Origin: Caldifarciminota bacterium
GTDB taxonomy: Bacteria > SDB-A
Direction: 5' to 3'
DNA length: 33,517 nucleotides
Assembly: GCA_016929715.1 (NCBI GenBank)
Contig: JAFGIG010000096.1
Span: 1-33,517 of the forward strand
The notes beneath the pieces are model-generated. The model was not told the origin of the DNA, ran no database searches, and saw only the letters and a program-made list of their open reading frames with translations. The translations under genes were made by a program, and so were the position numbers. Positions 13,335-20,637 of the stretch are shown piece by piece (positions within the stretch are counted from its first letter, which is position 1; every line of letters begins with the position of its first letter).

Positions 13335-13367
13335 CGCCGGCGTCAGAAATCATAAGTGACGTCGGCG
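13335..13367. terminator. Imperfect hairpin between convergent hpf and Omp85-like genes
   Basis: An 11-base inverted repeat with one mismatch, CGCCGGCGTCA (13335-13345) and TGACGTCGGCG (13357-13367), with an 11-base loop. It lies just after the hpf stop and covers the stop of the convergent barrel gene. There is no good U-tract on the plus strand, so it may be a weak terminator or an mRNA-end stabiliser. Confidence 0.35.
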
Positions 13368-14596
13368 TAAAAAACCGCCTCTTTATAGCTTGCCATTCTT
13401 GGGTTACCGGCAATGTAAACTTTTATGGACGAAATCTCAGTGCCTGCTGAAAAACCGGCTCCGAAACTGTATTCGCTCATTATTTCATTTAACGCGTTTT
13501 TGTAGCTGAGAAAGTCGAAAAATACAAATACATTGCTGTTTCTGCCTGTGAGAAGACGGGGCTCTATGAGAAAGAAAAAACCTTTTTCCGCTGGAATGGA
13601 CTCTTTTAGGTATCCCCTGGGACCTTTTTCGCCGCCGTATAATATTTCCAAATCATCAATTTCGGCGTCTGTCAGGCAAGCCTGAACTTCAGAAAATAAT
13701 CTTAGAGCAAAAGGCTTCTTTGGAAAGAAGAAGTCCACGGAAAAAATTCCGTAAAAATCATAATAATCCCTCTCGAGATAGTTCAGTTTTCCGTTTTTAA
13801 CTTCTATATACGATAAAATTCCCGAAGAAGGATTTCTCGGGTAGTCCAGCAAGTTGAAGACGACGCCTGTGATGTTCCTGTATGTTTTGTAAAAATAAGT
13901 TCTTGAAGAAAAGTCAATGTATTCGGCGCCTGTGAATATGTCAAAATCCCCAAGAGAGTAAAAAAGCCTGAAAAAGCCTGAAAATCTGTCTGAAAATTCC
14001 TCTGTTCTCACAGAGACGCTGATTTCGGAGTGAAGAGGTCTGGAAAAAAGCCATCGTGTCCTGAAGATGAAGGACCAGTAAGTTCTTTTTTCGTCAGGTC
14101 TATCCCAGTTGACTGACAGACTGTGCCCTCTGCCTGCGATGTTTTTAATGACACCGAAAATCTTTCCGCCCGTTGTATTTGTTTGAGCCAAATAAAAAAA
14201 CGAGCCTGAGACTGAATTTGATCTCCTTGTCCTGACAGGTATGATTAAATTCGCGTAATCGTCTCTTCCTGTGGTCCTGAGAAAAGTGCTGTCGCTGGCT
14301 TCAACAAAATCGAGTCTGTTGAGCTTTCTCAAGGCTTTTTGGATTTTTTCGTAGTCAAAGATAAATTCTCTCAGGGGAAGGCCTGATTCGAGATGAAGAA
14401 ATCTTCCTGAAGTTGAACCCCTCCCCTGAAAATCCACCCCTGTTATTTTAACAAAAGATCCCTCTTCGACGGCAAAAGAGACGGATATTCCCTCTTCCTC
14501 TAGAGCTATTTCTTCAACTCTTACTGATGCGAACGGTTTGCCGATGGAAAGGTAGAATTGAAGGATTTCCTGCGCCGCCAATGAGACGTCGTCCAT
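13343..14596 (-). CDS. Omp85/BamA-TamA-like outer-membrane protein (N-terminus probably frameshifted)
   Basis: An outer-membrane beta-barrel of the Omp85 superfamily, which inserts or exports proteins at the outer membrane. Residues ~10-125 look like one to two POTRA domains (GKPFASVRVEEI, SFVKITGVDFQGRG, then a helix and FVEASDSTFLR). The rest is a series of amphipathic strands ending in VFYADVTYDF, a Phe-terminated beta-signal. At ~417 residues it is shorter than BamA. The ATG at 14596 gives no signal peptide and its AGGAG abuts the codon. In the same frame upstream lies hydrophobic sequence back to 14686 with no start codon. TTG at 14690, which overlaps the upstream stop, joins this frame only if the 9-T tract is read as 8. 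Confidence 0.8.
   Translation of the reverse strand: MDDVSLAAQEILQFYLSIGKPFASVRVEEIALEEEGISVSFAVEEGSFVKITGVDFQGRGSTSGRFLHLESGLPLREFIFDYEKIQKALRKLNRLDFVEASDSTFLRTTGRDDYANLIIPVRTRRSNSVSGSFFYLAQTNTTGGKIFGVIKNIAGRGHSLSVNWDRPDEKRTYWSFIFRTRWLFSRPLHSEISVSVRTEEFSDRFSGFFRLFYSLGDFDIFTGAEYIDFSSRTYFYKTYRNITGVVFNLLDYPRNPSSGILSYIEVKNGKLNYLERDYYDFYGIFSVDFFFPKKPFALRLFSEVQACLTDAEIDDLEILYGGEKGPRGYLKESIPAEKGFFFLIEPRLLTGRNSNVFVFFDFLSYKNALNEIMSEYSFGAGFSAGTEISSIKVYIAGNPRMASYKEAVFYADVTYDF
13961..13980. repeat. 10-base tandem duplication inside the Omp85-like gene
   Basis: Two direct copies of AAAAAGCCTG. The unit is not a multiple of three, so loss or gain of a copy would shift the frame of the barrel gene. Confidence 0.5.
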
Positions 14597-14673
14597 CTCC
14601 TGTATTTTTTGTCTTGAGCTGTCAGGAAAAGAGAAAGCGCCTTCGATATTGAGATTTACGAAGGCGCAAACTG

Positions 14674-14682
14674 AAAAAAAAA
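14674..14682 (-). other. 9-base homopolymer that separates the Omp85 signal peptide from its frame
   Basis: On the coding (minus) strand nine T residues follow TTGATCTC. With nine the frame from TTG 14690 ends after about 22 codons. With eight it reads M-I-S-F-F-S-V-C-A-F-V-N-L-N-I-E-G and continues into the barrel. The tract could be a slippage or phase-variation site, or an error in the sequence. Confidence 0.6.
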
Positions 14683-14686
14683 GAGA

Positions 14687-15103
14687 TCAATGACGCAGAG
14701 GAGCATCTTGTTTAATATTTTTCAATTCAATATCGTGCTGAAAGACGAAATATCTGTTGAAGGGGATGTCAAGAACGTCACCGAGAAGGCGACAGCTGTC
14801 TTTGTAAGTGAATTTTATGGCTACACTGTCTCCTATTTCGCCTTTACCCTTGCGTCTTATGAATATGCTGTCGGGAGAGACAACTATGCCTTTCTCTTTC
14901 ATGAACTGGACTAATTTTGTTTTTATCACTTCGTTTTCATCGTATCTAATCTTTTCGTCAGCTTTTTTCTTAATTTCGTATTCGCGTATGGGAATTCCGA
15001 GGAATTGAAATCCTATGTATCCCAATATTAAAAGAACACAGAATATGAGGAGCGTCCATTTTTTAGCCGCTCCTTTTTTAATAAAATACTGTGTTTTTTG
15101 CAT
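14687..15103 (-). CDS. Small single-pass membrane protein of unknown function
   Basis: I do not recognise this 138-residue protein. It begins with a basic cytoplasmic stretch (MQKTQYFIKKGAAKKW), then one hydrophobic segment at about residues 17-37, then a soluble domain of about 100 residues with charged and beta-prone character (residues EKGIVVSPDSIFIRRKGKGE, then a strand FNRYFVFQHDIELKNI near the end). The topology would place the soluble part in the periplasm. It lies 5 bases after the TPR gene, and its TGA overlaps the presumed TTG start of the Omp85-like gene. This links it to an envelope role, possibly as an inner-membrane partner of the barrel, but no function is assigned. Confidence 0.72.
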   Translation of the reverse strand: MQKTQYFIKKGAAKKWTLLIFCVLLILGYIGFQFLGIPIREYEIKKKADEKIRYDENEVIKTKLVQFMKEKGIVVSPDSIFIRRKGKGEIGDSVAIKFTYKDSCRLLGDVLDIPFNRYFVFQHDIELKNIKQDAPLRH

Positions 15104-18224: not shown

Positions 18225-19214
18225 TTAAGAGAGAAATCCTGTCTCTCTATTGCATTTTGAACATCTGCCTTCTTCGATACCGGTTGTCGTCACTTTGAAC
18301 GAGTTTCTGTCTATCCATAGATTACCGCAGTCCGGACAGTATGTATTCGACTTTTCCGGATCGTATAAGTTCCCGAGAAAGACAAATTTGAGATATTTTC
18401 TCGCTTCTTCATAAAAAACTTTGAGTTTTTTTTCGTCGGTAGGAGGGGCATTAAACTTGTAGTTTGGGAAATACCTCGATAGATGATAAGGGATTTCATC
18501 GTCAACTGAAGAGATGAATCTGGCGGCGTTTTTTATCTCTTCAGCCGAGTCGTTGAAACCTGTGACCACGAGAGTCGTCACCTCCACGTGGACAAGATTT
18601 TTTTTAAGAAATTCTATGGTTCGCAGGACAGAATCCAGGTCCCCTCCGAGAACTTTTCTGTATTTTTCAGCACTGAAGGTTTTTAAGTCGATGTTGGCGG
18701 CGTCTATCAGGGGGGCAATTCGGGCGAGAGGCTCGGGATTTATGACGCCGTTTGAAACTATTACGTTATATCCTCCGTTTTTTCTGACTTCCCTGCCGGC
18801 GTCCATGAGATACTCGAACCACACGAAAGGTTCTGTATAAGTGTAAGATATGCCTATAGATCCTTTTTGTCTTGAAAGTTTTCCCGCTTCCTCCGGAGTT
18901 AAGGTCATTGTGGGCGAGAAAGACTGGGAAATGGAATAATTCTGGCAGAAAGGGCAGTCGAGATTACAGCCGTTAGGAGCTATTGAAAGAATGCTGGATC
19001 CGGGTTTGAAATGATAGAGAGGTTTTTTTTCTATCGGGTCCAGTGAGACTGATACGGTTTCGGCATATCCGAGGCTGTATAGATCACCGTCTATGTTGCC
19101 CCTTATACCGCAAAATCCTTTTTGCCCCGAGGCTATTACGCAATTGTGAAAGCACAGGAGGCATTTTACGGAACCATTATCGAGTTTTTCGTAGAATTCC
19201 GCTTTTTTTTTCAT
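18225..19214 (-). CDS. amrS: AmmeMemoRadiSam-type radical SAM enzyme
   Basis: A radical SAM protein of the pyruvate-formate-lyase-activating type known as AmrS. The [4Fe-4S] motif is C83-x3-C87-x2-C90 in NGCNLDCPFCQNYSIS. Upstream is a four-Cys block (C18, C21, C25, C35 in CLLCFHNC and GFCGIRGN), and the C-terminus has a zinc-ribbon-like set (CPDCGNLW and CSKCNRETG). The family is named for its link to AMMECR1 and Memo proteins, neither of which is in this window; the reaction is unknown. The start is ATG 19214 in an ATGA overlap with the apbE stop. The 9-residue longer form from 19241 would overlap more. Placement between apbE and the NusG_II gene suggests a shared pathway. Confidence 0.88.
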   Translation of the reverse strand: MKKKAEFYEKLDNGSVKCLLCFHNCVIASGQKGFCGIRGNIDGDLYSLGYAETVSVSLDPIEKKPLYHFKPGSSILSIAPNGCNLDCPFCQNYSISQSFSPTMTLTPEEAGKLSRQKGSIGISYTYTEPFVWFEYLMDAGREVRKNGGYNVIVSNGVINPEPLARIAPLIDAANIDLKTFSAEKYRKVLGGDLDSVLRTIEFLKKNLVHVEVTTLVVTGFNDSAEEIKNAARFISSVDDEIPYHLSRYFPNYKFNAPPTDEKKLKVFYEEARKYLKFVFLGNLYDPEKSNTYCPDCGNLWIDRNSFKVTTTGIEEGRCSKCNRETGFLS

Positions 19215-20209
19215 TTGATTTCCATGTATGGAATTTTCCACTCAGAGACATTATCTGAAAAACCGGGCGATGCGTAAAAATATATCACGGTGTCTTTTTC
19301 AAAAGCTACGAGAAATTCGGCGCCTAAGATTTTTGCCGCTTTTGTGCATTCCCGGATATCCAATATCATGAAAGCCGTCGAAAGTGCGTCTGCGTCCTCT
19401 GCTCTGTCGCATATAACCGTCGCGCTGATAGCGCCCCGTGAAGGGTATAAAGTAAAGGGGTCAATTATATGATGATATCTTGTCCCCTCGATAAAACTGA
19501 AACGCTGATAGTCTCCTGATGTGCAGACAGCTTTGTCTTTAATGGTTATGACGGCGACGATTGTTCCCGGATCTCTCGGATGCTGAACCCCGATTTTCCA
19601 AAGATTTCCGTCTTCGCGGAAGCCTTTTACCGAAATGTCGCCCCCTGCGTCGACGAGAACTCCGTAAATACCCATTGAATCTGCTATCTCCGCGGCTCTC
19701 TGAATAGCGAAACCTTTGGCTATGCCGCCTAAATTGGGGGTTTTCCAGGGAAAAAGGACGAAATGTCCGTTTTGGATCAAGGTTTCGCCGCTTTTTCTTA
19801 TTCGGGTGACGGAGTCGAGAAACACAGAATCCGGGACGCATATCTCACCTGACGAAAAATCGCCCCAGAGCCGGATGACATCTCCGAGAGAAGGGTCGAA
19901 TGCGCCTGCCGTCAGCTCGGAAATTTCGTTTGATCTTTCCCAGAGATAAACTGAATATGGGTGAAGCCGAATATCTCCGAGAAAAAGGTTTTCCGGTCCG
20001 TAAAGTGAGTCGAAAAATTTAAAATTTTCCGAAGCCAGTTCGATGTATTCGAGAAGAATCTCTCTGTCACGACCCACAGCAGAAATAGAGATTTTAGTGT
20101 CCATACATACAAAAGTTGTCTCTTCCCTGAAAAGACATGAAGTTTTTTGTGAACAGGAAAAGGATACTAAGACGGCTGTAAAAGAGAAAAATAAAAAAAA
20201 TATCTTCAT
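19211..20209 (-). CDS. apbE: FAD:protein FMN transferase, probable lipoprotein
   Basis: An ApbE-family flavinyltransferase that attaches FMN from FAD to Thr or Ser of target proteins on the outer face of the membrane. Family marks: GAFDPSLGDVIRLWG, NLGGIAKGFAI, VDAGGDISVKG, CTSGDYQRF, YHHIIDPFTLYP and the Mg-binding block DADALSTAFMIL. The signal MKIFFLFFSFTAVLVSFSC with Cys19 suggests a lipoprotein. The start is ATG 20209, which overlaps the YkgJ-type gene stop as ATGA, in preference to ATG 20221. No protein with the FMN acceptor motif (D-x-S-G-A-T type) is encoded in the window, so its substrate lies elsewhere in the genome. Confidence 0.93.
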   Translation of the reverse strand: MKIFFLFFSFTAVLVSFSCSQKTSCLFREETTFVCMDTKISISAVGRDREILLEYIELASENFKFFDSLYGPENLFLGDIRLHPYSVYLWERSNEISELTAGAFDPSLGDVIRLWGDFSSGEICVPDSVFLDSVTRIRKSGETLIQNGHFVLFPWKTPNLGGIAKGFAIQRAAEIADSMGIYGVLVDAGGDISVKGFREDGNLWKIGVQHPRDPGTIVAVITIKDKAVCTSGDYQRFSFIEGTRYHHIIDPFTLYPSRGAISATVICDRAEDADALSTAFMILDIRECTKAAKILGAEFLVAFEKDTVIYFYASPGFSDNVSEWKIPYMEIK

Positions 20210-20637
20210 GCGAAACCGCATATTCTGGCTAAAAAATTCCTGTGTTCGACATACATTTCCCTGATTTTATCTGCTTCAATGATTTTACCCCTGCCGATAC
20301 CCGGACAGGCGAGAGAATTAAAAGCATTTTCGTCTTTAAGGAGTGTTGACCAGAAAGGAAAGGTTCTGCACTGGACAGGCCTGACCAAATGTATTTGGCA
20401 GGATTTTCGGTCTAAAAACCTGCATTTTGAGGGGTGATTGTCCTTTATCACGAGATTTTTATCTTCGTCCTCAGTCACATATTCTTCCATGAAAAGAGGC
20501 AGAGAAATTCCAAGAAAAGAAGAAATCTTCTGCAGGTCGCTTTCGAGGAGATAAACCATTCCTCCTTCGACATCGCAGCAAGCGCCGCATTTCTGACATT
20601 CGAATCTGATTCCGTTTTCAAAAAAACACTTTGACAT
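20206..20637 (-). CDS. YkgJ family Cys-cluster protein
   Basis: A 143-residue cytoplasmic protein of the YkgJ / Fe-S-oxidoreductase-like family that probably binds iron or zinc. The N-terminal cluster is FECQKCGACC (C14, C17, C20, C21), followed by CRFLDRKSCQIHLVRPVQCR and PFWS, the family's second Cys block, and LACPGIGRG. Its exact role is unknown; some members are linked to maturation of cofactor proteins. AAAGGA lies 4 bases before the ATG. It is the first gene of the operon that continues with apbE, amrS, NusG_II and Gx-transporter, with 4-base overlaps at the first two joints. Confidence 0.87.
   Translation of the reverse strand: MSKCFFENGIRFECQKCGACCDVEGGMVYLLESDLQKISSFLGISLPLFMEEYVTEDEDKNLVIKDNHPSKCRFLDRKSCQIHLVRPVQCRTFPFWSTLLKDENAFNSLACPGIGRGKIIEADKIREMYVEHRNFLARICGFA

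Follow-up and report, generated by a model that had tools for sequence, protein, structure and literature searches.

The recoding sites known from bacteria mostly give rise to variant C-termini, as in dnaX, IS elements and phage tail chaperones, or to a release factor. Our search of the open-licence literature, including the full text of a large 2016 review of recoding, returned no case of a signal peptide split by a frameshift, and the mechanism that we propose below for an Omp85-type gene is one of a known kind in a use that we have not found described. The window analysed here (the whole stretch of 33,517 nucleotides) comes from one of the only four genomes that represent the phylum. These are the window's own genome (G000), two congeners (G001 and G002) and a more distant genome (G003), which represents a separate genus of the same family; all four are draft assemblies. 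G003 is filed under Desulfuromonas by NCBI (contig LKUE01000029.1 of the 'Desulfuromonas sp. SDB' MAG) and was grouped in this analysis with the family of the window's genome. When further orthologues were sought, genome contigs returned the G003 record alone and viral contigs gave zero matches. All four genomes have the same gene order, in which a TPR gene is followed by a gene for a transmembrane (TM) protein of 138–141 aa and then by the barrel gene, and identity to the 417-aa ORF of G000 is 58% in G002, 55% in G001 and 27% in G003; for the proteins read in the barrel frame it is 58% in G002 and 56% in G001. The features of the locus are collected in Table 1; inside the signal peptide of its BamA-like protein there is probably a programmed −1 frameshift site.

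Table 1. Features at the start of the barrel gene (window coordinates).
Feature	Coordinates	Strand	Basis or remark
Upstream gene, 138-aa single-TM protein, family unassigned	14687..15103	minus	kept in three relatives
Leader ORF, ATG 14706 to TAA 14658–14656, MLLCVIDLFFFQFAPS then stop	14656..14706	minus	sequence
TTG put forward as start by the first-pass annotation, not conserved	14688..14690	minus	G002 and G001 lack an equivalent
9-T tract; last seven (14680–14674) form the in-frame U_UUU_UUU of the leader frame	14674..14682	minus	sequence
Spacer CAGTTT, 6 nt, heptamer to hairpin	14668..14673	minus	from the sequence; G002 has 6 nt and G001 3 nt
Hairpin, GCGCCTTCG - 13-nt loop - CGAAGGCGC, proposed frameshift stimulator	14637..14667	minus	folding, conservation
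First canonical start of the barrel frame, ATG	14594..14596	minus	within first POTRA; ACG in G001
−1 frame, SVCAFVNLNIEGAFSFPD..., signal-peptide end, POTRA-type region, Omp85-type barrel; 443 codons + stop	13343..14674	minus	in-frame conservation in G002, G001 and G003

A relationship of the protein to BamA is suggested by several profiles. The POTRA profile (PF07244) scores above its cut-off in G001, G002 and G003 and slightly under it in G000, the Omp85 barrel profile gives a match in G003 only, below its cut-off, and the NCBIfam BamA model TIGR03303 matches at 1.5e-14, far under its cut-off. Searched against the PDB, a profile of the four proteins matched POTRA 4/5 and the start of the barrel in BamA chains (E 8e-13), and all of its matches there were BamA or Omp85-type proteins; an AlphaFold2 model made from a two-row alignment had a mean pLDDT of 32.5 and was left out of the identity argument. 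Elsewhere the genome has four Omp85 matches above cut-off, and the protein would therefore be an accessory short member.

The stretch of the barrel frame that precedes its first canonical start is under selection as protein. The alignment of the four barrel-frame proteins begins at their very first residues and takes in the ordinary, TTG-started N-terminus of G003 (MLLLFIICSFQQINLQGAYHFPD). The predicted signal peptide has no positive charge, as is also the case in G003. Between G000 and G001, the 16 codons AFVN...PDS have seven synonymous changes and one nonsynonymous change in the barrel frame, and the synonymous:nonsynonymous counts in the other two frames are 0:8 and 0:7. Alignment and codon changes together show that the downstream −1 frame is under protein-level selection and that the sequence before 14596 is coding in the barrel frame. 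That frame reads open from 14686 to 13343 (minus), and a scan for ATG, GTG and TTG bore out the first-pass annotation in finding ATG 14596 to be the first start that remains in it; no such codon occurs before codon 30 in G000 and G002, or before codon 55, in mid-POTRA, in G001. Initiation at ATG 14596 was rejected, since the site lies inside the POTRA and is ACG in G001. Orthologues that begin at the equivalent of this ATG had been named as the case that would refute the earlier idea; the comparison of N-termini speaks against it, with that ACG in G001 and a G003 start that lies further upstream and opens a signal peptide. We also rejected readthrough of the stop of the upstream gene into the barrel frame, because the stops vary (TGA, TAA and TAG) and G003 starts independently in another frame. 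Translation must therefore come into the barrel frame no later than the hairpin, and the T tract is the only point in that region where it can do so from a canonical start.

The upstream protein is 76–80% identical in the congeners and has zero family matches over cut-off; we take it to be possibly DUF4845-like. Its gene ends in TGA at 14689–14687 (minus), after which come TCTC and nine T's, the count given for 14682–14674 by the first-pass annotation. That annotation placed the start of the barrel gene at TTG 14690, which does overlap the upstream TGA and whose frame does stop after 22 codons, and restored the reading by shortening the tract to eight T's. From its last stop up to the tract, that frame has no ATG, GTG or TTG in G002 or G001, and so the change needed would be −1 from an ATG (one T read twice, or an extra U). 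The earlier idea of a signal peptide split by one base at the tract, with slippage required, is thus kept with a different start and a different base change. The actual start is most likely ATG 14706, which lies in the third frame and is present in both congeners; neither it nor the inverted repeat at 14667–14637 nor the frame shared by the barrel and upstream genes had been described in the first-pass annotation. This ATG has no Shine-Dalgarno sequence, as the TTG start of G003 has none, and is partly imposed by the Asp-Ala codons (GAT GCN) of the upstream gene. The leader ORF that it opens shares 20 nt with the 3' part of the upstream gene, to which its translation is probably coupled. ATG-started leader ORFs are found at the equivalent position in G002 (MLLYVTNLFFFLVAPS, then stop) and G001 (MHLCVSSLFFFLAPSST, then stop), and in all three congeners the leader is hydrophobic, has 16–17 codons and crosses the T tract. 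The barrel frame coincides with that of the upstream gene in all three congeners and is −1 relative to the ATG leader ORF in 3/3; the G003 barrel gene starts at an in-frame TTG, 2 nt past the upstream stop codon, in a frame that differs from that of the upstream gene.

The leader reads ATG CTC CTC TGC GTC ATT GAT CTC TTT TTT TTT CAG TTT GCG CCT TCG TAA in G000, ATG CTC CTT TAC GTA ACT AAC TTG TTT TTT TTT CTT GTT GCG CCT TCG TAA in G002 and ATG CAC CTC TGC GTA AGT AGC CTG TTT TTT TTT TTA GCG CCT TCG TCA ACC TGA in G001. The tract therefore has 9, 9 and 11 T's, respectively, and G003 has no tract. Tested against the X_XXY_YYZ pattern, U_UUU_UUU sits in the ATG frame in 3/3 congeners, and a slip back of one base yields ...LFFF-SVCAFVNLNIEGAFSFPD in G000, ...LFFF-SCCAFVNIEIEGAFSFPD in G002 and ...LFFFF-SAFVNLSIEGAFSFPD in G001. 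Tract plus nucleotides to the stem come to 9+6, 9+6 and 11+1 (G000, G002 and G001), so that tract and spacer together differ by three bases in G001; there have been indels, yet the offset is preserved. U_UU.U_UU.U falls within H_HH.U_UU.Y, the class rated most efficient in E. coli, and structures that stimulate frameshifting generally begin 5–8 nt downstream (PMC4066793). The distance from heptamer to stem is 6 nt in G000 and G002 and 3 nt, below the usual value, in G001; of the readings considered, ribosomal −1 frameshifting fits best.

The stem downstream of the tract is a perfect 9 bp and is identical across the three congeners, with a loop whose sequence varies. Each congener genome (3/3) has a single copy of the hairpin pattern, always at the T tract, and G003 has none. 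The predicted folds have energies of −16.3 to −16.6 kcal/mol, with z scores of −2.7, −2.2 and −3.2 in the three congeners and 0.06 in the equivalent region of G003, which has neither the hairpin nor a need for the shift. None of the five third-codon positions in the stem varies (probability ~0.001 given the rest of the gene), and when the same 15 residues were recoded synonymously the observed stability was reached in only 15, 30 and 21 of 5000 sequences (0.3–0.6%). We used a 361-kb sample of the genome, taken as stretches, as background for homopolymers and hairpins, and among its 613 runs of at least seven T's the present tract comes third by the fold behind it. A T7 run at L034 3361–3367 (+) is followed by the strongest such hairpin, at −21.9 kcal/mol. 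The best Rfam match around the site (E 0.15) was under the gathering threshold and not significant. Since the stem is invariant, there are zero compensatory changes in it among these three genomes of one genus; conservation and recoding together show that the hairpin is constrained beyond the protein sequence.

Our preferred reading is a programmed −1 frameshift within the signal peptide, which we think more likely than not. To its furthest-reaching form, in which a hairpin-stimulated −1 ribosomal frameshift at about codon 11 acts as an obligatory export throttle for an Omp85-type protein, we give a probability of roughly 0.55. Ribosomes would initiate at ATG 14706, probably re-initiating after the upstream gene, which ends at 14687, or coupled to it, and codons 1–11, the MLLCVIDLFFF part of the signal peptide, would take them into the U tract. 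There, with the hairpin 6 nt further on as stimulator, a fraction would slip back one base at the in-frame U_UUU_UUU and go on as SVCAFVNLNIEGAFSFPD... to a 454-aa exported Omp85/BamA-like protein; those that do not slip would end at TAA 14658–14656, in the hairpin loop, with a 16-aa hydrophobic dead-end peptide. As the export signal is split between two frames, the protein is most likely made only upon the one-base slip back. Because the shifted reading alone would yield protein, the site would fix a low ratio of barrel protein to upstream products, and the barrel protein is likely kept scarce relative to the upstream proteins. Against this reading stand the missing Shine-Dalgarno sequence and partly forced presence of ATG 14706, the 3-nt spacer of G001, the invariant stem with its zero compensatory changes, the uncharged signal peptide and the small base of three genomes from one genus. 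We infer the slippage itself, that the ribosome and not RNA polymerase slips, the start at ATG 14706, the efficiency and the regulatory purpose.

An alternative that we consider possible, with a clearly smaller chance, is programmed transcriptional slippage, in which RNA polymerase inserts an extra U at the tract or skips two. The resulting 10-U mRNAs (12 in G001) would encode the whole signal peptide from ATG 14706, and the hairpin would have another use or act jointly. Runs of nine T's have the length at which many bacterial genomes select against slippage, and some genes exploit it (PMC1088944); the tract is thus of a slippage-prone length, and it is G001, with the longest tract (11 T), whose hairpin spacing is least suited to the ribosome. 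A downstream hairpin would not help the polymerase, however, and its conservation is left unexplained, because the hairpin is not yet made while the tract is being transcribed; moreover, at least 8 ordinary long ORFs in the 361-kb sample contain a run of nine or more T's in sense orientation. Frameshifting by the ribosome is more likely than transcriptional slippage.

Homopolymer tracts are well known as switches of surface proteins, and the first-pass annotation had proposed such a contingency switch, with tract length varying from cell to cell and the sequenced majority OFF. We do not favour this idea and think it improbable: three species with tracts of 9, 9 and 11 T would all have to be OFF, in the same sense, the conserved hairpin would have no explanation, and nine T's are short for a switch that works at a high rate. 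Slightly less probable than a switch is initiation at a non-canonical codon, by which ribosomes from the upstream gene would restart in the same frame just past its stop, on CUU, GUU or similar; the barrel frame would be entered directly and a frameshift would therefore be unnecessary. The coincidence of the upstream and barrel frames in three congeners fits this, as does the position of the G003 TTG, but the codons after the stop vary (TCT CTT / CTT GTT / CCT GTT) with zero recognised efficient starts among them, the signal would be a very short hydrophobic stretch, and tract and hairpin are unexplained.

Attenuation of the leader-peptide kind, known from pil1 of Streptococcus gallolyticus (PMC3894217), would make the hairpin and its U-rich tail a terminator that ribosomes on the leader ORF open, with the barrel protein started at ATG 14596. 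The zero-frame leader ORF stops within the hairpin loop in G000 and G002 (TAA) and slightly further on in G001 (TGA), so that a ribosome completing the leader would open the hairpin and a link to attenuation is possible. After the stem comes a T-rich stretch, TTTCTCTTTTCC (14636–14620, minus), found in the congeners too, which encodes the conserved AFSFP and could be a weak terminator. Nevertheless we hold this explanation to be very doubtful, since G001 has no ATG at the required position, a start there forfeits the signal peptide and the first portion of the POTRA, the codons before it are conserved as protein, and 13 nt would make a long loop in a terminator.

The 361-kb sample also bears on the quality of the assembly. 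It contains 206 physical A/T runs of 8 or more, 59 of them in ORFs that are open for at least 60 codons on either side. A screen for long ORFs 3' of a tract without a nearby start returned seven sites including this one; on inspection by eye the remaining six looked like alternative frames or genes that start soon after the tract. The tract scan also picked up, at 18225–20221 (minus), a 9-A run where an ApbE-like and a radical-SAM gene (AmmeMemoRadiSam-like, by eye) overlap, with MKKK, which is an ordinary gene start. Although homopolymers are error-prone and all the assemblies are drafts, a wrong base count, the other option that had been raised, is most improbable, because in the sample we judged no ORF to be broken by any other A/T run of at least 8, and the same offset is present in the two other species.

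Splitting of the export signal itself has a practical consequence, since gene callers give a truncated protein that lacks the signal or the POTRA (391 aa in G001) and that as annotated would escape notice as an outer-membrane component. If our reading is true, recoding at about codon 11 decides whether a protein is exported, frameshift-controlled genes extend to envelope assembly, and an uncultured lineage offers a simple test case.

Compared with BamA/Omp85 proteins (TIGR03303, PF07244 and PF01103), this one shares the POTRA match and resembles the region of POTRA 4–5 and the barrel start, but has ~450 aa and about two POTRAs and is below family cut-offs. Like transcriptional slippage in Thermus dnaX, Shigella mxiE/spa13 and IS elements, the site has a homopolymer of at least 9 and a downstream ORF out of frame; unlike them, it has a conserved downstream hairpin at ribosomal-frameshift spacing. 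With the obligatory frameshifts of RF2 (prfB) and antizyme it has in common a functionless short zero-frame ORF and a whole protein that requires the shift, but those are +1 and subject to feedback by product or polyamines, whereas the shift here would be −1, and we know of no sensor for it. The bacterial −1 frameshifts of the dnaX and IS3/IS911 type likewise have an in-frame X_XXY_YYZ heptamer, a stable downstream stem-loop and a −1 product, with a spacer of ~6 nt as in two of the three species here; the present site differs in having U_UUU_UUU rather than A_AAA_AAG, in a proposed shift after codon 11, within the signal peptide, and in a zero-frame product that is a 16–17-aa peptide, so that the shifted reading alone would be useful.
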